DNA from: Pseudomonadales bacterium
GTDB lineage: Bacteria > Pseudomonadota > Gammaproteobacteria > Pseudomonadales > JAHRWD01
Reading direction: 5' to 3'
DNA length: 61,667 bases
Assembly (NCBI GenBank): GCA_016763075.1
Contig: JAESUM010000039.1
Location: 1-61,667 of the forward strand
Of the stretch, positions 34,223 through 45,522 are shown piece by piece. The notes below the pieces were generated by a model. The model saw nothing but the letters and a program-made list of their open reading frames with translations. It was not told where the DNA came from and ran no database searches. Both the position numbers and the translations under genes were made by a program. Positions within the stretch are counted from its first letter, which is position 1. Every line of letters starts with the position of its first letter.

Positions 34223-34687
34223 CTAAATAATCGTACAAAGTTTTTCCATATCTAGCACGTATACAATACTTTCTCGAATATCTATTTTGGCCACAAATGG
34301 CCACACTTCTGACGCTGAACTCTCGTCAACCACTGAAAAAGAGCTTTCATCAATAAACAATAGCCTTGGCAGTCGATAAAATTCTAACGCGATATAGGCG
34401 TGTTCATTACTGTACGAAAGCGTATGACAAATTAGCACACGCCTTGTTTCGTCGGTTACCTTTTTAGGTAAATCCGGCACATCATCAAACGTCACTAACG
34501 GTACAATTTGACCACGCCATTCGACGCCGCCATCAACCCAGGGCGAGCCATGCTGCAAGGGTGAATTATCAAGGTGGTACAGTGTTTCCGCAATCATTGC
34601 CCCAGGAACTAACAGACTACAATCTTCACGCCAGGGTACTACGCAAGCATGTAGCTCTCTTATGTTTTGTTGTCGCGACTCAGTCAT
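34223..34687 (-). CDS. chpC: ChpC, CheW-like adaptor of the Pil-Chp system
   Basis: CheW-domain protein of 154 residues, an accessory adaptor linking receptors to the ChpA kinase. The conserved pattern of a strand followed by V-E-W-R-G-Q-I-V-P-L is present at about residues 54-64. Its start codon lies eight bases inside the chpA end, and the position matches chpC in P. aeruginosa, although chpB is missing here. It is the last gene of the Pil-Chp operon. Confidence 0.85.
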   Translation of the reverse strand: MTESRQQNIRELHACVVPWREDCSLLVPGAMIAETLYHLDNSPLQHGSPWVDGGVEWRGQIVPLVTFDDVPDLPKKVTDETRRVLICHTLSYSNEHAYIALEFYRLPRLLFIDESSFSVVDESSASEVWPFVAKIDIRESIVYVLDMEKLCTII

Positions 34688-37600
34688 GCTTTGGCGCCTC
34701 TAACAGTTCACGAACACAAGTCGTGAGTTCAGCTTCTTGGAATGGTTTACCAAGGTAATACTTAACGCCTAGCTCCAACCCTCGTTGCATATGTTTTTTA
34801 CCCGTTCGTGAGGTGATCATAATAATTGGAATATCTTTAAAGGCTTCCGTCGCGTTCATATGTTGGGCCAATTCATAGCCATTCATTCGTGGCATTTCCA
34901 CATCGAGCAACATGACATCGGGTATCGTTTCTTGCAACATTGTCATGGCTTCAATGCCATCCTTTGCGGTCACAACGTTCATGTTTTGGCGTTCGAATAT
35001 CCCCGAAGTAATTTTACGCAGTGTAATCGAATCATCGACAATCATGATCGTTGGTTTTGTTTCTACCACGGGTTCAATAATTTCGACAGGCACTTGCTGC
35101 TGGCTATCACGCATCAATGCTTTTACATCAAGCAGTAATGCGATTTTCCCGCTAGAAAGCAACGTGCCATCGACGAACCATGGGTAACGTTTAAATTGAT
35201 CACCAATTGGAACCACTTGTATTTTGGAGGTACCCATCAGGTAATCGAGCTGAACAGCAATAGAGCGCTCACCAACTTGCGCCAACAACACAGGTACTTC
35301 ACCCACTGCCGCTGTGCTTGAAGGCACTCCGGATAACCCCAAAACAGCGCCCAAATAATACAGCTCGTAAGCCGTTCCTTCGTATTCTAAAGAAGGGTGC
35401 TGCTGGTTATAGTTAGGCAAAATTTCACTTGCCCGTACTTTAATTACGCTATCGACACTGCCGTGCGGAATCGCATACACCTCGTCCGCCACTTCAACCA
35501 TTAATGCTTCGGTCAACGATAATGTAGCGGGCAACCTCATGGTAAAGGTAGTGCCTTTACCCAGCTCGGATAATATCGCAATGGTACCGCCAAGGTTTTG
35601 AACCCCGTCCATTACCGCATCCATCCCAACACCACGACCAGCGATCATTGAAACTTCGCTGGCGGTTGAAAACCCTGGTGCCATTATAACTTGGTACAGA
35701 TCTTCGTCATTTATTTCTTGATCTTCGTCGAGCATGCCTCGTTCTATTGCTGCTCTGCGGACTCGGTCCTTGTCTATTCCCGCGCCATCATCAGAGATCG
35801 AAATTTCAATATTCGAAAGTTCACGTACAAAGGATAAACGTATAGTCCCTTGTCGTGGCTTAGTTTTGCCGGTTAGGCCGCCTTCGCGGATATCGGGCAT
35901 TTCAATACCGTGCGCTACTGCGTTACGCAGCAAGTGCTCGATGGGCCCCACAATTTTTTCAAGTAAACTACGCTCAATATGTCCTTCGATACCCTCCAAT
36001 TCAAAGTTGGCTTCCTTGCCTTCACTTTGCGCCGCCATGCGTACAACACGTTGAAATCTTCCAAATTGCTGCTGCAGCGGAAGCATCAATGTTTTGAGCA
36101 AACCATCACGTACGTCTCGTGCCGCTAAGCTTGCTTTTAACATCAAACGATCAGTGTCATCTGACGATTTATCGAGGATGCCACCGATTTCAGAGAGATC
36201 TTCTACTGTCTCGGTTATCGAGCGGGTAATTTGTTGTAGGGTTGAATATCGATCCATTTCTAACGGATCAAACGCGCCATCTACTTGGCTGCTTTGCTCG
36301 CCCTGATGCTTAGACATAATTTGTGTTTCTGTCTCAACATTTAATGTACCCAACTGACGCTGCAACCGGCCAATAGTGGTTTTAAGTTCAAGCAAGCTGT
36401 ATTTATCATGGCCGTGCTGAATGTCTAAATGTGTTTGGGTAATACTGATTTCACCAGCGGTGTTAATCAGTTTATCCAGCGCGCTTGAAAGCACTCGCAC
36501 CCGTCGATCTTCACCGCTGTTCTTTTCAGCTTGTATGGGCACGGGTGCTTCACGACGAACTAACCGCCCCTGGGTAACAAACTCTTCGGTACGCTCCAAT
36601 ACTACGGGTACATTTGCGTTGCTTTGGTCGGTTTCTGACTCTGGATTATCTGATTCAAAACCAATATTGTTTTCGTCATTTACTTCGGCTTGAGAATCAT
36701 CTGTGCTAAATAATTCAGGCAGCAGTAATGTTTCGTCATCCCACTGGTCGTTCGAAGCGGCGGCTTTAACTACCGTGATTAATGGTTGTAATTCGGATAA
36801 CGGTTTGCGTTCAACCAGCTGCTTGACGTTATGGTGCATCACGTCAAAAGAGGTGCGAATCAGTTTTTGTAATCGTTCGTCATGCTTAACGTTACCATCA
36901 ATTAAACGCTCAAAAAGCGACTCTAGAAAATGGGTCAGTGCACCCATCGGATAAAGTTTGGCCACTAACGCGTTACCTTTAAAGGTATGCAAATACCGCA
37001 GCTGGGCATCCATCGCCACGACGGAATCTGTATTGGTCAACCAAACGGTAAACGCTTGGTCTAATTGCTCAACTAATTCACCCGCCTCATCCAGAAACAA
37101 TGCCAAAATTTCCGGGTCAACCGGCTCGCCGGTATTGATATCATCGAGTTCAAGAAACGAAAAGTCTTCAGCTGGATCTAGTGTTTCAGGTAGTGCCTGC
37201 GCATCAAGGAGTTCTTCAAAGTAATCGGTTTCTTCCTCTGTATGCAGCTCATCAGGTCTAGAGCCTTCAATACCTTCATTTTTTGGCTCGCTTATTTCCG
37301 AAACCAACTGTTCTGCAGTTTCTTGTTCGGTAACTACTGCATCGGAATCTACTGAATTAGATTCCACTAAATTCGACTCAACTAAATTCAACTCAACTAA
37401 GTCAGTAATTATTGGCTCGTAAGCGCTCTGGTCTTGTTCGGTCGATTCCTGTTCCGTTGTTTCTGGTTCTGTTGTCGCTAGGTCTACGGTTTCCAATTCA
37501 ACTTCTGCAAATTCTATTTCTACAGATTCACTGTCTGCTGGCGCTCCATCGATGAGCTCAAGGTCGACTGGTTCAACATCAATCATCAAATCTTGATCTG

Positions 37601-39377
37601 AGGACAGTGCAAGTTTAACCTGCAGTTTAGAAGTTACTTCGGCCAACTCAGGTAACGGTTGTTCTAGATATAAGCTATCCAGCACGTCTTCTAAACAGGT
37701 TAGGCACACATACATAAGACCGATAACATCGTCGTCGAAGTTACTCAACCTGTTCAGCGTTTGCTCCATCAATGCAATAAGCTCAGCTAATTCTGAAAAC
37801 TCGGCACGCTCAACATGAATACGGAATTGATGTAACGCAGCAGAAAACTTCTCGCGTACCTCAACGTTTTGGGTAACCGTTTTCCAAGTATTGAAATGTT
37901 CGTGTAGGCCAACCATATCGTCAATGGCGGTCGCTAAAAACGTAACGGCATCTACCCCAGTGATGGCTAATGCAGAATTGGAGCCACCCATTTCACGGTG
38001 TTCAGAAATCATCTCCCTAAGCGCAGTATTGGCCTGAGACACTTCGTCAAATAGCGATCGCCATTGTGGCGCATGCTCTACTGACTGGTTGATAGCCGCA
38101 ATTGAGCGACGCATGATATGTGCGTACTGACTTAATATGTCCAAGCTTTCGGGATCGCATGGCTTCGACAACACTGACAATGAATTACAGTATTGCTCCA
38201 TGGAATCGCTTAGCCTAGTCATGGCTTCAACGCCTGCCAAACGAGAACTACCATGCAGCGTGTGAATGGCGGTAATGAGTTCGCAATCTACTACGGTTGA
38301 GGCTCTAATGGCTCGGTCAATAAACGATATTATTCTGTCTACCTGAACATTCGATTCAGGAATGAAGATTTCGTAAAGACTGTCTTCCATCGTGCAAAAT
38401 AGCTCGGTATCTTCTACCGAAGGCTCTTGCACAACCATGTCGTTCGAAGCTTCTATTGCAGGCTCTGTTTCAGCGACTTTAAAATCATTTGGTTCAACAA
38501 CGACAACGCCGTTGCTAAGCAATTGCTCACCATCAGGGAATATATCGGCGCGGCGCTGCAATGCCAACATCTCACTCATTGGCATGAGTTGAGCAGCAAA
38601 AAACAGCTCAACCACCGATGCCATCGTTACGACAAATTCATCCATCAACACCACTAAGGCATCACTGTGATTCAAGCGGCCGGTAATCACTTTGCCAAAC
38701 AATACTTCGCCCGCAGCCGAGTACGCTGCCAGCGATACTGCACCCACTACGTTACCGCTACCCTTGAGGGTATGAAAACTACGTCGAGTGGTTTCTATAG
38801 CTTCTTTGTCTGCTGGATCAAGTCTCCAGCGCGCATATTGTTGCTGGATAACATCGAGTTCTTCCGTAGCTTCTTCGTGGAAAATATCAATGATTTCAGG
38901 ATCAATTTTATCCAACTCGGTTTGAACTTCTTTCAGCAGGTCATTACTTTCAGGGGTTTCACCCTCAGCATCGAATGTTTCTTTCGGTGCATCAAGTTCT
39001 TTACCTACCGCAGCTGAGGCCAGCGAAACCATGGCATGGCGAGAATATTCTAGGCTTTTTGAAACCACTGCAGCAAGGTCAAAATCGCTGGTTAGAAAGG
39101 AATCTAAACCAACCAATGCATCAATCAATGCTGACCATTGCTTCTCTTCAAAAACGAGGGTTTTGTGAATTAAATTGGTAACGGTTTCAGAGATGCTTCT
39201 AGCAACATCGGAAGCTTCGTGTAACTCGATAAACGTAAGCAAGTTCATCAATTTATTCAGGCCGGTTTGCGCAATTTCAAGGGTGGCTCCACCCTCGGGG
39301 TTCTCGAGATAGGCTTCTACGTTACCCATCACCAAGGATAATTCTTTGCGCGCACCTTCAACGACTAATTTATTCAT
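34680..39377 (-). CDS. chpA: ChpA, hybrid chemotaxis histidine kinase of the Pil-Chp system
   Basis: CheA-type kinase controlling type IV pilus twitching, 1565 residues from the ATG at 39377. Three histidine phosphotransfer motifs are visible: FHTLKGSG (His202), IHTLHGSS (His372) and LHTFKGNA (His797). An acidic repetitive linker lies at about 600-715. The dimerisation helices start near 900 (SSALDKLINTAGEIS), followed by the ATPase domain with N-box HLLRNAVAHGIE and G-box SDDGAGID, a CheW-like domain and a receiver domain with phospho-acceptor Asp1492 in LLDVEMP. P. aeruginosa ChpA is much longer with more phosphotransfer domains, so this is a compact form. Confidence 0.95.
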   Translation of the reverse strand: MNKLVVEGARKELSLVMGNVEAYLENPEGGATLEIAQTGLNKLMNLLTFIELHEASDVARSISETVTNLIHKTLVFEEKQWSALIDALVGLDSFLTSDFDLAAVVSKSLEYSRHAMVSLASAAVGKELDAPKETFDAEGETPESNDLLKEVQTELDKIDPEIIDIFHEEATEELDVIQQQYARWRLDPADKEAIETTRRSFHTLKGSGNVVGAVSLAAYSAAGEVLFGKVITGRLNHSDALVVLMDEFVVTMASVVELFFAAQLMPMSEMLALQRRADIFPDGEQLLSNGVVVVEPNDFKVAETEPAIEASNDMVVQEPSVEDTELFCTMEDSLYEIFIPESNVQVDRIISFIDRAIRASTVVDCELITAIHTLHGSSRLAGVEAMTRLSDSMEQYCNSLSVLSKPCDPESLDILSQYAHIMRRSIAAINQSVEHAPQWRSLFDEVSQANTALREMISEHREMGGSNSALAITGVDAVTFLATAIDDMVGLHEHFNTWKTVTQNVEVREKFSAALHQFRIHVERAEFSELAELIALMEQTLNRLSNFDDDVIGLMYVCLTCLEDVLDSLYLEQPLPELAEVTSKLQVKLALSSDQDLMIDVEPVDLELIDGAPADSESVEIEFAEVELETVDLATTEPETTEQESTEQDQSAYEPIITDLVELNLVESNLVESNSVDSDAVVTEQETAEQLVSEISEPKNEGIEGSRPDELHTEEETDYFEELLDAQALPETLDPAEDFSFLELDDINTGEPVDPEILALFLDEAGELVEQLDQAFTVWLTNTDSVVAMDAQLRYLHTFKGNALVAKLYPMGALTHFLESLFERLIDGNVKHDERLQKLIRTSFDVMHHNVKQLVERKPLSELQPLITVVKAAASNDQWDDETLLLPELFSTDDSQAEVNDENNIGFESDNPESETDQSNANVPVVLERTEEFVTQGRLVRREAPVPIQAEKNSGEDRRVRVLSSALDKLINTAGEISITQTHLDIQHGHDKYSLLELKTTIGRLQRQLGTLNVETETQIMSKHQGEQSSQVDGAFDPLEMDRYSTLQQITRSITETVEDLSEIGGILDKSSDDTDRLMLKASLAARDVRDGLLKTLMLPLQQQFGRFQRVVRMAAQSEGKEANFELEGIEGHIERSLLEKIVGPIEHLLRNAVAHGIEMPDIREGGLTGKTKPRQGTIRLSFVRELSNIEISISDDGAGIDKDRVRRAAIERGMLDEDQEINDEDLYQVIMAPGFSTASEVSMIAGRGVGMDAVMDGVQNLGGTIAILSELGKGTTFTMRLPATLSLTEALMVEVADEVYAIPHGSVDSVIKVRASEILPNYNQQHPSLEYEGTAYELYYLGAVLGLSGVPSSTAAVGEVPVLLAQVGERSIAVQLDYLMGTSKIQVVPIGDQFKRYPWFVDGTLLSSGKIALLLDVKALMRDSQQQVPVEIIEPVVETKPTIMIVDDSITLRKITSGIFERQNMNVVTAKDGIEAMTMLQETIPDVMLLDVEMPRMNGYELAQHMNATEAFKDIPIIMITSRTGKKHMQRGLELGVKYYLGKPFQEAELTTCVRELLEAPKHD

Positions 39378-39433
39378 AGATTGCAAAAACTATTTCCGTA
39401 TCGTCGCTACAGACTGTGCTGCAACGAGAGGCT

Positions 39434-39586: not shown

Positions 39587-41680
39587 TTATTGTTCCTCCG
39601 GCAAGGTAAATTCAGTGACTGAGTTACGGAGCTTCAGAACGTTATCAACCTGATAAACAATACCTTTCGCCGTGGACGTAATACCCGTGGACATTTGTTC
39701 AGTAATATCTTGAATCGATTGCATGGTTTCACGCAAGCCAGATGCCAAAGCCGATTGCATTTTGGCAGATTCAGCCATCTGCATGGTTTCTTCGGTAACC
39801 TGATGTGAAGCCTTTTGGATATCTTCAAGTGCTCGGCCGGCCTCTTCGGCAAGTCCCGTTCCGTTTAACACTTCAGTAATACTCAACTCCATTGAAGCAA
39901 CCGCTTCTGAGGTGTCTGCTTGAATGGCGCTCACCAACGTTTCAATCTGTTTGGTAGCACGGCCCGAACGCTCCGCTAGTCGCTGTACTTCATCCGCAAC
40001 AATAGAGAAACCTCGCCCGGCATCACCCGCTGCAGCTGCCTGCATAGAGGCGTTCATCGCCAGAATATTAGTTTGGTCAGTAATACCGTTAATCAGGCCA
40101 ACAATACTGCCAATTTCTTGCGAGCTTTCGCCCAAACGTTTAATCCGCTTAGAAGTACCTTGAATCTGCTCCCGCAAGACTCCCATACCATCAATATTCT
40201 GGAAGGCAGCACCACCACCTTTTTCAGCAAGTGCAAGTGACTCCGCAGCAATATTTGCAAGCATCTCCGCTTTGTCTGCCATTAACTGAAGTGTGATCGC
40301 CATGTCTTCACTAACTTGGTTAGCGCCCATTAAATCGCTATCTTGCTGCTCTGCCGCGATGACCAATTCTTTAATCGTTAATTGGTTTTTGTCCGCCGCG
40401 CTGGATACTTTTTCAGAGGTGTCGTTAATTGATAATACGACCTCGCGCATCGTTTCGACCGAAGCATTAATGGAGTCTGCAATGGCTCCGGTAATATCTT
40501 CAGTGACCGTGGCTTCAATCGATAAATCACCGTTCGCCAAGTTGCCCATTTCTCGCAGTAGCTGCCGAATAGCTTCTTGGTTAGTGTCATTTTGAATACT
40601 AATTTCACGTGCTCTAGTACGAGCCTGGCCAATAATCAATAAGCTAAGAATCAAAAAGGTAATGGTCGTAACTGCAAACAATACACTTGCAAATCCAGAA
40701 CCAACTGTCATACCCATGACTTGCAGTTGACCAGCCGATGCCGCATAGAACTCCATAAGCTCGGCGTCAATTGCAGCCAACTCTTCCGATGCAATCGTCA
40801 ATACTGAGCTACCGCCAGCTTCACGTAGGTCATCGGTGCTGGTATCGTCCATCGCGCCAAGTGTGGTTAACGCAGGTAATAAATCAGCAATCATCTCGAG
40901 CAGTTCATCTCGATATATTCGAACGTTTTCTAACTGACGTAGCACTTCAAGCAAAGAAGTACGTACAGCTTCATCTTTAACTGCAGTAATCCCTAGCGTC
41001 TTGTCACCTTCGGTAAGGGCAGTAACGACAATTTCTAGTTTGTCTGTATTCTGCGTGAGTTGATCCAGTGCAAATACAGTCGTTAAGCCGCCTTCCAATA
41101 CTTCACCCAGGTTGGTATCGATTCCTTGGGCGATATATAGCAGAGTAGTCGCGTGGTACACCTGTTCGTTGGTACCTTTACCGACTAACTGCGCAGCCGC
41201 AGTATCAACCACTTCGATAAAGTTCGGCAGCACGCTTTTCATATTCGAGACGATATCATCGGCTTGAACAATTACGCTTTGGCTAAGTAGAATCGAGTTA
41301 ACGTGAGTCTCAAGTTTTAGCCACGACGCCTCTAACTTGGCGATAGTGGGTTGTATTTCTTGTGGAGAAGCGGGTAACCCACGCTCAACAGACCCGTCCT
41401 TTAATTCGGCAATTAATACTGTAGATCTGTCTCTAGCTTTCTTAAGGGATGCAAATGAGCTTTCGTTACCCGATACCGATTCCACCGCGTATTTAGCAAT
41501 CTGGTGAGCTAACACCTGTTGCTCTGACGCGCTAGTAAGGTATTGGCTGAAGTTTTCTTTATGCGTGCTCTGAGCGGAAAATGCCCATATAGTCAGCGCT
41601 AAAGAGATGGCCAACGCCATCGATACAAAAGCAATCACGTAAAAGCGAAGGCTAATGTCTAGTCTAAATCCTTTAGTCAT
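39587..41680 (-). CDS. pilJ: PilJ, chemoreceptor of the Pil-Chp system
   Basis: Inner-membrane receptor that activates ChpA in response to pilus/surface signals. It has 697 residues with TM1 at about 10-32, a helical periplasmic region, TM2 at about 330-352, HAMP, and a coiled-coil signalling domain. The tip reads TDQTNILAMNASMQAAAAGDAGRG, split here as TNILAMNAS and QAAAAGDAGRGF: the QAAAAGDAGRGF form is typical of PilJ rather than flagellar-type receptors (EAARAGEQGRGF). It sits between pilI and chpA. No pilK methyltransferase gene is present, so methylation, if any, must be done by an enzyme coded elsewhere. Confidence 0.95.
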   Translation of the reverse strand: MTKGFRLDISLRFYVIAFVSMALAISLALTIWAFSAQSTHKENFSQYLTSASEQQVLAHQIAKYAVESVSGNESSFASLKKARDRSTVLIAELKDGSVERGLPASPQEIQPTIAKLEASWLKLETHVNSILLSQSVIVQADDIVSNMKSVLPNFIEVVDTAAAQLVGKGTNEQVYHATTLLYIAQGIDTNLGEVLEGGLTTVFALDQLTQNTDKLEIVVTALTEGDKTLGITAVKDEAVRTSLLEVLRQLENVRIYRDELLEMIADLLPALTTLGAMDDTSTDDLREAGGSSVLTIASEELAAIDAELMEFYAASAGQLQVMGMTVGSGFASVLFAVTTITFLILSLLIIGQARTRAREISIQNDTNQEAIRQLLREMGNLANGDLSIEATVTEDITGAIADSINASVETMREVVLSINDTSEKVSSAADKNQLTIKELVIAAEQQDSDLMGANQVSEDMAITLQLMADKAEMLANIAAESLALAEKGGGAAFQNIDGMGVLREQIQGTSKRIKRLGESSQEIGSIVGLINGITDQTNILAMNASMQAAAAGDAGRGFSIVADEVQRLAERSGRATKQIETLVSAIQADTSEAVASMELSITEVLNGTGLAEEAGRALEDIQKASHQVTEETMQMAESAKMQSALASGLRETMQSIQDITEQMSTGITSTAKGIVYQVDNVLKLRNSVTEFTLPEEQ

Positions 41681-41774: not shown

Positions 41775-42311
41775 TCAATCCATCATAAATCGACGGTCGG
41801 TAAGCACTGATGAAAAACTAATAACAGGCCAAATTTGGTTTTGATAATCGAAGACTTCATAAATGAACGTATCGATAATATTATCAAGCGGTGAATATTC
41901 TCGTTTACGATCCAACGGTAAGTAACGTAACCCCAATACCGATGGAACTAAAAACCCAAAATATTTACCCAGGTATTTCACCACCAATATTTTTGACTGG
42001 TAGTCCAACGTCGTAGGCACTCCGCCAAGAAAACACTGCAAATCCGAAACGGTAAGCACGTCACCGTGAAAATGGGCAAGTCCAACCATCCAATCCGGCG
42101 TATTCGGTACTACGGTCATCGACTCGGGGTATTCGACAATTTCCGTAATTTCGCTGGTGCTGGCAATAATTTTTCTTCCGCCTACAACGAAGGACAGTCC
42201 ACGCCAATCTTCCTCATGATCTACAACCAAGTCTTCAGTTTGTTGTACTTTCTGAGCCAGTACGTCCATTTTCAACATACTGTCCATTACGGTCGATGTC
42301 TGAACGCTCAT
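41775..42311 (-). CDS. pilI: PilI, CheW-like coupling protein
   Basis: CheW-domain adaptor (178 residues) coupling PilJ to ChpA. The first 40 residues are a variable helical extension; the CheW fold follows, with FVVGGRKIIASTSEITEIVEYP-like strand order and the conserved WMVGLAHFHGDVLTVSDL region at about residues 80-100. It starts two bases after the pilH stop. By order pilG-pilH-pilI-pilJ it matches the P. aeruginosa operon. Confidence 0.93.
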   Translation of the reverse strand: MSVQTSTVMDSMLKMDVLAQKVQQTEDLVVDHEEDWRGLSFVVGGRKIIASTSEITEIVEYPESMTVVPNTPDWMVGLAHFHGDVLTVSDLQCFLGGVPTTLDYQSKILVVKYLGKYFGFLVPSVLGLRYLPLDRKREYSPLDNIIDTFIYEVFDYQNQIWPVISFSSVLTDRRFMMD

Positions 42312-42313
42312 GT

Positions 42314-42688
42314 TTAACCTACGGCTGCTTCCAGCAAGTTATTTACTTTGTCTCGAAAGCTCGATGAATCTACCGGCTTAGACATATAGTCCGAAGCGCC
42401 TTGACTCAAACCCCATTCGATATCGGTATCTTGCGATTTCGTAGTTACAATAATTATCGGAATATCTTTAGTTGATGCATTGCGGTGAATTTTCCGTGTT
42501 GCTTTAAAACCATTCATCCCCGGCATTACAATATCCATAACAATAAGATTCGGTTTTTTATCGATCGCCATTGCCAAGCCTTCTTCGCCGCTGCTTGCCT
42601 TAATAGCTTTATGTCCGTCCTTCTTCAAAATTTCTTCGAGTACATGCGCCTCGACTGGGGAATCATCTACTATCAAAATTGTTGCCAT
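42314..42688 (-). CDS. pilH: PilH, single-domain response regulator
   Basis: Receiver domain only, 124 residues. The acidic pair Asp8-Asp9, phospho-acceptor Asp52 in VMDIVMPG, the Thr in IVTTKS and the Lys of MSKPVD are all intact. In P. aeruginosa PilH controls pilus retraction and acts against or beside PilG. It is second in the operon, 68 bases after pilG. Confidence 0.93.
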   Translation of the reverse strand: MATILIVDDSPVEAHVLEEILKKDGHKAIKASSGEEGLAMAIDKKPNLIVMDIVMPGMNGFKATRKIHRNASTKDIPIIIVTTKSQDTDIEWGLSQGASDYMSKPVDSSSFRDKVNNLLEAAVG

Positions 42689-42756: not shown

Positions 42757-43173
42757 CTAATTCATGGCTGCGACTTGTTCTACCGCCGAAACCTGATTAA
42801 TAGCCGAGATCAAACTGTGTTCGCTAAATGGCTTCGTCAAACATTGATCGAACCCAGCAAGTTTACTTCTAGACTGATCGAACCGACTGTTCTTTCCTGA
42901 CAGCATAATGACCGGAATATCACTAAAATCTCGGTGCTGCTTTATTAAAGAGCACGTCTCATAGCCATCAATTTCTGGCATCATAATATCTAAAATAATT
43001 AGACTCGGCCTTGACTCGACGATCTTCGAAAGTGCATCTAAGCCGTCCGTAGCTAACACTACGTCAAAGCCGGCTTTTAGTAGACTTTTTTGAGTGGTCA
43101 CTCTTATCATTTTACTATCGTCAACCACCAGTACGGTCTTGTCTCTAATACTTTCTCTAGCTGTTGATAACAT
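42757..43173 (-). CDS. pilG: PilG, single-domain response regulator
   Basis: Receiver domain only, 138 residues with a short N-terminal extension. Asp18-Asp19, phospho-acceptor Asp62 in ILDIMMPEIDG, Ser in MLSGK and Lys in LTKPFS are intact. In P. aeruginosa PilG promotes pilus extension and raises cAMP. A good RBS (ggaga) precedes the ATG at 43173. Two PilJ-sensor-like genes lie directly upstream on the same strand, 122 bases away. Confidence 0.93.
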   Translation of the reverse strand: MLSTARESIRDKTVLVVDDSKMIRVTTQKSLLKAGFDVVLATDGLDALSKIVESRPSLIILDIMMPEIDGYETCSLIKQHRDFSDIPVIMLSGKNSRFDQSRSKLAGFDQCLTKPFSEHSLISAINQVSAVEQVAAMN

Positions 43174-43295: not shown

Positions 43296-44078
43296 CTAAC
43301 TTCCAATTGCTTCTTTACGAAAGAATCCGTGTATTTTACCAAGCTCTCGTTTTAGACTAGAAGATGACGCCAAGACAATCACCGGCAAAGAACCTTCTTC
43401 TACACCCATAAAGAAACGTTTTGCTATTGGCCAAAAAGAATTAATTTTCTTGAGACTCGCCTTTTGAGAAGCATGAAATCCGTCAAAAGAAGATACTTCC
43501 TTCAAGTTATCCTCGAATTCATCCACCGCCAGTTTAAGTTGAGAAACATTTACTTCATCCCGCAGACCTGAATAATGCGCAATATAAAATTTACTAATTC
43601 GCTCTAGCAAAAATTCCATACGCTCGACGTCTACCAGCATCGTTTCCGAAACCTCGTTAAAATTCTTATGGCGAGCCGCAATGAGTTCCGCACCTTCTAG
43701 CAATGATTCACTGTAATCCATGACCAGCGCGCCATTCTCAAGACTGTACTCTTCAGCAAGCGTTTCTTTCATTTCGTCACGAGTAAATCCAAAAAACAAC
43801 ATTACGTTCTTTTCTTCCGCACCTAATGCAACGGTTTCAAGATACTTTAACGATTTATCCAAATCCATCAGGCCATCTTTAAGATGCCTTTTAGCAACGG
43901 AAACGCGTATCCCTTTCCCTTTATAGAAATATGCCATCGGAAGTTTTTGGCTAATGAATGCAATATTTTCAGCTGCTTCTAGAATCAGAAGCTCCTTTTC
44001 AGTTGCAGCATACGTAGCAGTTGCCTGAAGTGACAGTGCCACAAACGCCGCAACAAATGTTCCTTTAATCATTTTCAT
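43296..44078 (-). CDS. Exported helical protein resembling the PilJ sensor domain (copy 1)
   Basis: Predicted periplasmic protein of 260 residues. A signal peptide spans about 1-24 (cleavage near Thr-Tyr-Ala), then an almost entirely alpha-helical mature part with no Cys, no membrane segment and no signalling domain. The region from about residue 36, with ENIAFISQKLPMAYFYKG and a long run of helices, recalls the helical NIT/PilJ N-terminal sensor module (PF13675 type), but the match is weak and by eye. Its ATG overlaps the stop of the upstream gene by four bases (ATGA), showing translational coupling. It lies directly upstream of pilG. No defined function is known to me. Confidence 0.7.
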   Translation of the reverse strand: MKMIKGTFVAAFVALSLQATATYAATEKELLILEAAENIAFISQKLPMAYFYKGKGIRVSVAKRHLKDGLMDLDKSLKYLETVALGAEEKNVMLFFGFTRDEMKETLAEEYSLENGALVMDYSESLLEGAELIAARHKNFNEVSETMLVDVERMEFLLERISKFYIAHYSGLRDEVNVSQLKLAVDEFEDNLKEVSSFDGFHASQKASLKKINSFWPIAKRFFMGVEEGSLPVIVLASSSSLKRELGKIHGFFRKEAIGS

Positions 44079-44917
44079 TGTAGCAATTCCTCTTCTAATA
44101 ATAGGATGTCACGCACTTCATAAAATACATCAGCGGCAATTTTTTCTGCTCGTGTAGGCTGGAACCTTCCACTCCTACTGGCGGCCAAAAATCCGAATAC
44201 CAAAAAGTGGTTATCAAGCTTCTTGAGCGATATTTGTAGTTCTTCTGAGCCTAATGTGCGTTTAGCGGCGGTTAATTCACTGTAGTTCTTTTTGAAATTC
44301 TTCTTTATTTTGTCGACTTCCGAATAGTATTCACTTTCATCGGCGCCCCAAGCGCGAATCATATATATCGCAGCTAAACGCTGAACCTCCATCCCTAATT
44401 TCCCAGTTAACACGAGATCATGCTCACCTTGAATTTGAGTATCTATTGCTAGTGCTTCGACGTGGGCTTCACATTGTTTTGAGAAATGATCTACACGTAG
44501 TCGCAATGCAGGGACACCGGTTTTTGACGGGGTTTTTATAAGGAGCGGTTCTATCTCTTTCCATTCGCGGTCCAGTGAGCGCATCGAAGCCGCGAGATCA
44601 TCATTGAGTTCAGTACTGGTCATCACCCCAGTCGAAAGGTACATGCTCATTTCAACCATGCCTGCTTGCAGATCAGCAACGGGATCTTGGTACACGACAC
44701 CCATCCCAATCAGCGCGTAGTCTTTCAACATGCGATTGGACAGCATACAAACTTCAACAATTTCCTGAACATGCTCGCTTGAAGCATTCGCCTCAACACG
44801 GGGCCCTAACGTCAACATAGAAACTCCCAGCATTGCGCTTAGAACTCCGTTTAACGTATTATTCCTTCCCAAACCTTGTCTTTGATTGGATGGCTTTCGC
44901 CAACACATAAATTTCAT
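44075..44917 (-). CDS. Exported helical protein resembling the PilJ sensor domain (copy 2)
   Basis: Predicted periplasmic protein of 280 residues, first gene of the Pil-Chp run. The basic N-terminus is followed by a hydrophobic segment (about 22-40) ending near Glu-Ala-Asn-Ala, consistent with a signal peptide. The mature part is helical and contains CMLSNRMLKDYALIGMG at about residues 56-72, close to the RMLSQRMAK pattern of PilJ-type sensor domains. There is no second membrane helix or cytoplasmic domain. The RBS ggag lies eight bases from the ATG. It is coupled by ATGA overlap to the next, similarly built gene. Confidence 0.7.
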   Translation of the reverse strand: MKFMCWRKPSNQRQGLGRNNTLNGVLSAMLGVSMLTLGPRVEANASSEHVQEIVEVCMLSNRMLKDYALIGMGVVYQDPVADLQAGMVEMSMYLSTGVMTSTELNDDLAASMRSLDREWKEIEPLLIKTPSKTGVPALRLRVDHFSKQCEAHVEALAIDTQIQGEHDLVLTGKLGMEVQRLAAIYMIRAWGADESEYYSEVDKIKKNFKKNYSELTAAKRTLGSEELQISLKKLDNHFLVFGFLAASRSGRFQPTRAEKIAADVFYEVRDILLLEEELLQ

Positions 44918-45470
44918 ATCTTTCGCTCCGATTTCATAAACATTTCAATCCGCCTATTTATTAAACGCGCTGCAAACTAGATTAGTTTTCGACTGTATTT
45001 TTTGTATTGGTATCTCTGGAAATGGATTTTTTTGCGATATAAGTCCGACCAACCTAAGGTTGATTATAAATATTCAAGCGGGAACTTTCAGACTCACGCT
45101 GGATTTATCGCGAGGGTATTAACTTAAATTATTATTATTGGCGTCCATTCCTTACACTCCCATTGATTACAATGTGGGGTCTTACAACAAATACTTTCCG
45201 TGTTAATCAAAAAAAGTATAGTCAAGAATTTCACAATTGCTAAAAACAATGTTTTCTTTTTTTATTGTGATCTCCTCGGTTCTTTTAAGGATGGCAGAGT
45301 CTTTTGCTACCACACGCAGAACATTGGTAATTGCGACCTGAGTCACACTATTTAGTTTGCCTGTGTATTTATTTTTCTGGAAATGCCACCAAAATAGGAA
45401 TCAACCATTCAAACCCCACGTGTTTCCATGCACTTAGCGATACCAGATTATCGGTATTCCTAAATTTGAG
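44918..45470. other. Long spacer between ftsZ terminator and the Pil-Chp operon
   Basis: About 550 AT-rich bases with no credible gene. It should carry the promoter of the Pil-Chp operon. A candidate on the minus strand is TTAGCA (45238-45243), 17 bases, TATACT (45215-45220), about 300 bases ahead of the first start codon; the -10 is good, the -35 only moderate. No sigma54-type box was found. Confidence 0.4.
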
Positions 45471-45472
45471 GC

Positions 45473-45502
45473 AAAAAAAAGCCCGCAGATGCGGGCCTTT
45501 TT
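45473..45502 (-). terminator. Rho-independent terminator of the dcw cluster
   Basis: GCCCGC (45481-45486), loop AGAT, GCGGGC (45491-45496), followed on the minus strand by eight T residues (45473-45480). It lies 27 bases after the ftsZ stop. A five-T run on the other side could let it work both ways. Confidence 0.93.
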
Positions 45503-45522
45503 ATTTCACAGGGGTAACTCAA

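Follow-up and report, generated by a model that had tools for sequence, protein, structure and literature searches.

A tandem pair of exported PilJ-type proteins at the head of a second Pil-Chp cluster in a Pseudomonadales bacterium

Closest described systems and the P2-P1 pair

The periplasmic domain of Pseudomonas aeruginosa PilJ consists of two consecutive PilJ-type repeats. According to the accessible part of PMC6381276, its N-boxes are not conserved and the PilJ domain showed no nitrate binding, the N-box for nitrate binding being [IVL][ND]xAGxQRML[ST]Q. The solved PilJ domain is reported, in the available portion of PMC12632253, to lie nearer the HBM type than two PilJ domains; the same portion, together with that of PMC10896506, names indirect activation of PilJ via a periplasmic binding protein as an open option. 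In QseG-QseE, a separate extracytoplasmic protein modulates a four-helix-bundle sensor (PMC12691602, accessible text), which is the logic proposed below for the pair. A literature search, with most subscription journals outside its reach, turned up neither a paper on PilJ-domain proteins that are exported and free nor one describing a second Pil-Chp cluster.

The two genes considered here, P2 and P1, lie in a window of 61,667 nucleotides, the whole stretch of DNA analyzed (contig JAESUM010000039.1). PilJ is membrane-anchored and has a signalling part, whereas P1 and P2, which likewise carry two repeats each, are free. They resemble McpN, NarX and NarQ (PF13675) in the model of the P1 C-terminal half and in N-box position, and differ from them in lacking the N-box arginine in four of four repeats, in lacking a membrane anchor and in carrying their repeats in tandem. 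QseG is an outer-membrane lipoprotein, while in P2 and P1 the accessory protein would itself have sensor-domain ancestry, its contact with a receptor being a prediction only.

The P2 and P1 open reading frames share a 4-base ATGA overlap, and a gap of 122 bp separates P1 from pilG, pilH, pilI (CheW), pilJ (MCP), chpA and chpC, all co-directional (Table 1). The initial annotation had described two consecutive exported genes of 260 and 280 residues overlapping ahead of pilGHIJ-chpA, which the open reading frames bear out, with chpC as an addition. That they have neither membrane anchor nor signalling domain, as it also held, agrees with the searches made here. Each protein has an export-like hydrophobic stretch at its N-terminus; past residue 45 there is no membrane-like segment, the highest 19-residue Kyte-Doolittle mean being 0.95 in P2 and 1.13 in P1, and domain searches found no signalling domain in either. 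Both proteins are predicted to be exported to the periplasm. No minus-strand terminator-like site in the P1-pilG gap is among those listed, which makes a single transcript of the pair and pilGHIJ possible. Promoter and terminator counts showed no excess over shuffles, and no RNA element reached Rfam gathering thresholds.

Upstream of P2 lie ftsZ and ftsA. The gap between ftsZ and P2 (window 44918-45522, ~600 bp) has no Rfam match; lpxC, usually expected after ftsZ in this class, is absent from it. In genome G619 (L159:772-3251), a family member also stands close behind ftsA-ftsZ, with one small open reading frame between. This common neighbourhood may be a coincidence or an old arrangement.

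Table 1. Features of the P2-P1 locus and the adjoining Pil-Chp cluster, in window coordinates
Feature	Coordinates	Strand	Description
P2	44075..44917	-	Exported protein, 280 aa, two degenerate PilJ-type repeats; first gene of the pair
P2 repeat 1	44729..44755	-	Degenerate N-box ..CMLSNR; arginine position is Cys57
P2 repeat 2	44378..44404	-	Degenerate N-box GKLGMEVQR
P1	43296..44078	-	Exported protein, 260 aa, two degenerate PilJ-type repeats; second gene of the pair
P1 repeat 1	43941..43967	-	Degenerate N-box NIAFISQKL
P1 repeat 2	43596..43622	-	Degenerate N-box RMEFLLERI
pilG	42757..43173	-	PilG-type response regulator, second Pil-Chp cluster
pilH	42314..42688	-	PilH-type response regulator
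pilI	41775..42311	-	PilI-type CheW coupling protein
pilJ (PilJ2)	39587..41680	-	Second PilJ chemoreceptor, PF13675 and MCP signalling domain; candidate partner of the pair
chpA	34680..39386	-	ChpA hybrid histidine kinase: three Hpt stretches, HATPase, CheW, receiver
chpC	34223..34687	-	ChpC-type CheW protein

Family membership, fold and N-boxes

The Pfam PilJ model matches P2 below threshold (E 0.19) and gives no match to P1 at E up to 10. Searches of 194 genomes of the order found relatives of P2 in 24 and of P1 in 22; outside the window's genus 18 genomes were common to both queries, and in each of them both matched the same gene. PF13675 stood above cut-off in eight of eight relatives scanned, with two PF13675 stretches in six. 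A family profile found a match at E 1e-6 in 37 of the 194 genomes of the order and at E 1e-20 in 19 of 369 from the class, and viral contigs contained no relative of the one query. Profile-profile comparison with 20 standard members scored 99.1% for P2 (E 8e-19) and 98.6% for P1 (E 7e-16) over most of their length. The reversed profile reached at most 0.3% and each of 20 column shuffles at most 4.3%; the failure of these controls rules out a generic helical match as the cause of the similarity. Canonical PilJ sensor domains matched the free exported family at 98.2% in the same kind of comparison, and the best PDB matches of the family profile were PilJ 7zjr (1.5e-4), PilJ 8wdf (2.6e-4) and McpN 6gcv (6.8e-4). 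Judged by these profiles, P2 and P1 belong, as divergent members, to an exported-protein family that carries PF13675 twice, which supports the earlier likening of the pair to PilJ/NarX-type sensors.

In the structure model, the C-terminal half of P1 (block pLDDT 62-86) is clearly a four-helix bundle. Its best match is McpN (Z 14.8, 2.3 Å over 115 residues), and NarQ (13.1) and NarX (12.0) appear as well. With Z up to 13.7 in the same list, designed bundles come within about one Z unit of McpN, so that a PilJ type for this predicted fold is favoured rather than proven and the support from structure is modest. Foldseek with the P1 model gave no match at E 0.001, and PilJ chains are absent among the best 50 matches to the C-terminal model, which is uninformative either way. 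XylFII-LytS, another case of an accessory protein and a four-helix-bundle sensor, is also listed among the P1-model matches. The model of the N-terminal half of P1 is of low confidence, as is that of P2 (pLDDT 38), which has eight helices past the signal peptide. Taken together, the profile-profile matches, the PDB matches of the family profile and the P1 C-terminal model indicate that each protein most likely comprises two PilJ/NarX-type bundles.

Derivation of the pair from the sensor domain of PilJ2 itself is ruled out by the orthologous free pairs in other genomes (P1 up to 35% identity, E 8e-43; tree). A profile test against that domain gave 0.5% for P2 and 0.1% for P1, with low power: P2 against P1 reached just 0.4%, and the PilJ2 domain against the family 4.5%. 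A recent duplication giving P1 and P2 is ruled out as well, by a best BLASTP E of 1.0 between them and by the separate grouping of first and second genes over 13 genomes, in a tree with several long branches flagged.

None of the four repeats of the pair has an N-box, even when the relaxed pattern with Ser for Ala is included, and the position of the N-box arginine is taken by Cys, Gly, Ala and Glu. The CMLSNRMLK segment occupies residues 57-65 of P2. By the relaxed pattern, which is looser than the published one, two N-boxes are present in 57 of 78 family genes examined, one in 10 and none in 11, these genes being chosen loci and not a random sample. Read from the motif, all four N-boxes have been lost in the window pair. 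Cys57 and Cys149 are invariant in six P2-type alignment rows, which were chosen by hand and of which L050 and L051 place elsewhere in the tree. That a Cys57-Cys149 disulfide might replace the N-box arginine is only an idea. A Cys at the arginine position of the repeat-1 N-box occurs on two separate tree branches, that of window P2 and that of L050 and L051, and these rows have a fourth-helix Cys.

The pair in other genomes and the second Pil-Chp cluster

The same arrangement, with the same ATGA overlap, is found in G004, the only other genome of the window's taxonomic family examined. Since G004 keeps it, the pair is not a product of chance. Identity between window and G004 is 69% for P2 and 79% for P1. 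At saturated synonymous sites, pN is 0.20 and pS 0.86 for P2 (pN/pS 0.23), and pN 0.13 and pS 0.92 for P1 (pN/pS 0.14); purifying selection on the two genes is much like that on PilG and PilJ of the second cluster in the same comparison. The spacing between P1 and pilG is 103 bp in G004, against the 122 bp of the window, and the genes are co-directional in both.

A tandem pair is present in the window genome, in G004, in G432 and in 12 genomes of the order of G540, G540 included, and in all 15 of them P2 is followed by P1. In a tree of 13 pairs, first genes and second genes form separate, well-supported groups. The closest orthologues of window P1 are those of genus g370 (96/90); the rows nearest to window P2 are G011 and G432, followed by g370, several long branches making the finer order unsure. 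On this tree, P2-P1 is an old tandem module of two paralogues from a free-standing exported family.

The association with pilG from which the earlier reading had started does not extend to the family at large, whose genes lie mostly away from pil/chp loci, the outcome that the earlier reading had itself named as speaking against it, and in varied neighbourhoods; the pair was seen beside chp solely in the window's genus. The 13 tandem pairs outside it have no chp in the stretches examined, "not beside chp" meaning absent from that stretch, or placed by coordinates on a different contig or no closer than 60 kb; the pair of G574 sits at a contig end. The module therefore needs no linkage to chp. 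The exported gene preceding pilG in G540 and G207, considered as a relative of the family, is a rhodanese and was excluded. In G540, the gene adjoining the pair (L108:10330-11775) combines an ATP-grasp part with a TIR domain of CAP12/Pycsar type, and L149 and L150 have an open reading frame matching it in length and start.

The cluster in the window has pilG, pilH, pilI, pilJ and chpA-type genes in the order that defines Pil-Chp, with no candidate pilK/chpB frame between pilJ and chpC. It adjoins ftsZ and not gshB and tonB, the usual place of Pil-Chp. A canonical cluster at gshB-tonB, without the pair, is carried by both the window genome (L085, G000:C94) and G004 (L086, G004:C14); that of G004, fully covered, also has no candidate pilK/chpB frame between pilJ and chpC. 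The canonical cluster lies some kilobases from two PilT-family genes. The Pil-Chp cluster of the window is thus the second in its genome. These two genomes alone have two PilJ matches of about E 1e-75 or lower among the matches listed for 194 genomes of the order, 369 of the class and 119 of the order of G540, samples that are subsets, with scoring confined to the top candidates of each genome.

In the tree, canonical PilJ falls with the order, and the second PilJ with genus g370 (100/99), at 46-48% identity. The nearest sampled relatives of PilJ2 and of P1 hence belong to the same other genus. In eight g370 genomes no family gene was found near chp and the g370 pairs are located away from it; gshB adjoins chp in seven, and the stretch of the eighth (G649) ends first. 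Probably, a g370-like chp cluster was imported and joined here with a pair of the same kind into one operon, with the direction and number of transfers as we infer them.

A proposed receptor partnership and rival readings

In one subfamily from the order of G540, with both N-boxes intact, a same-strand MCP gene starts at most 83 bp downstream in 17 of 17 cases (L112, L153-L158, L162-L171). These are all the family-search rows with E from 2.0e-28 to 2.8e-23, seven examined first and the other ten after; over the 78 family genes examined, an MCP is that close in 17. MCP and HAMP domains were present in all six adjoining MCPs scanned, and the three subfamily proteins scanned (L112, L153, L156) have a signal peptide and PF13675 twice. 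The exported N-box protein and the adjoining MCP form a candidate two-part nitrate receptor. The subfamily is separate from the window pair and differs from it in being a single gene with intact N-boxes next to an MCP outside Pil-Chp, whereas the pair is two genes that have lost theirs; to that extent it counts against a like role for the pair. The position of the subfamily directly upstream of an MCP makes a chemoreceptor partnership plausible and argues for a co-receptor role more strongly than any other observation. The earlier proposal of free periplasmic sensors for PilJ accordingly keeps its family and, as plausible, its chemoreceptor partnership, and gives way in that the cluster is a second Pil-Chp and the genes are old free-standing paralogues.

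PilJ, taken as present at a listed match of 1e-70 or better (1e-75 in the class sample), is more frequent in family genomes than in others in all three samples, by counts uncorrected for kinship, which also favours a co-receptor role: 35 of 35 family genomes of the order against 98 of 159 others, 50 of 51 against 44 of 68 in the order of G540 and, for the class sample, 14 of 19 against 143 of 350. Of the 37 family genomes in the order sample, G037 and G124 were moved to the comparison group, each having its single match within a receptor-sized frame, and some of the remaining 35 have partial matches only. The family does not need PilJ, since 5 of the 19 class family genomes have no PilJ match.

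The reading we prefer, to which we give about an even chance, is that P2 and P1 are periplasmic accessory sensors for the second PilJ that respond to a signal other than nitrate. Both would be exported and be soluble in the periplasm, the signal peptide being followed in each by two PilJ/NarX-type repeats. The old two-gene module, whose members elsewhere mostly have N-boxes, would now head an apparently acquired second Pil-Chp cluster after losing all four of its own. Alone or as a P2-P1 heterodimer, the two may recognise either a protein or some ligand other than nitrate and attach to the periplasmic portion of PilJ2, which would then signal through ChpA. We infer the heterodimer, the contact with PilJ, the ligand, the effect on pili and the transfer history. 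The strongest contrary facts are the pairs unlinked to chp in the other genomes seen and the lack of detectable similarity to the PilJ2 domain in the low-power test.

The first of these facts, seen in G432 and 12 genomes of the order of G540, together with the varied neighbourhoods of the family, points to a pair independent of PilJ2, with its own periplasmic sensing or buffering, perhaps for other receptors, its linkage to chp being transfer history. Against this, both genomes of the taxonomic family retain the linkage, the overlap and the direction despite saturated synonymous sites, and a single genus holds the nearest sampled relatives of P1 and of PilJ2 alike; this alternative is rather unlikely, if a serious one. 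Long branches and lost motifs might also mark decaying remnants without function; with pN/pS of 0.14-0.23 and export segments kept, this is scarcely credible, and the least probable of the readings.

The loss of the N-boxes also leaves room for a protein ligand: the pair could bind type IV pilus parts (pilin or assembly proteins) and report pilus state or surface contact to PilJ2. The host cluster is a Pil-Chp and PilT-family ATPases pass the curated cut-off in this genome, which fits this idea, yet no pilus structural gene was recognised beside pairs among the minority of neighbours scanned, and relatives mostly keep N-boxes; we consider it improbable. Those same N-boxes in relatives suggest nitrate or nitrite sensing for pilus-based taxis, as do two of seven loci chosen for scanning: within ~5 kb, L065 has a nitrite-reductase-type gene, and L127 an NMT1-type binding protein accompanied by an ANTAR regulator. 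The residues now at the arginine positions of the window pair speak against it, and it is very improbable here.

More broadly and quite tentatively, free exported PilJ-type proteins might be a general class of chemoreceptor co-receptors, a released soluble sensor subunit that originally served nitrate. Recruited together with the second Pil-Chp cluster, the tandem pair would then have given up nitrate binding and acquired a new input for steering pili. The nature of the PilJ signal, and whether it arrives directly or via a periplasmic helper, is treated as an open question in the accessible parts of PMC12632253 and PMC10896506. Here a PilJ has a dedicated pair of soluble sensor-family proteins heading its operon, and in another order a chemoreceptor gene directly follows the gene of an exported N-box protein. 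The two systems are small, and the activation of a receptor by a soluble partner may be studied directly in each.
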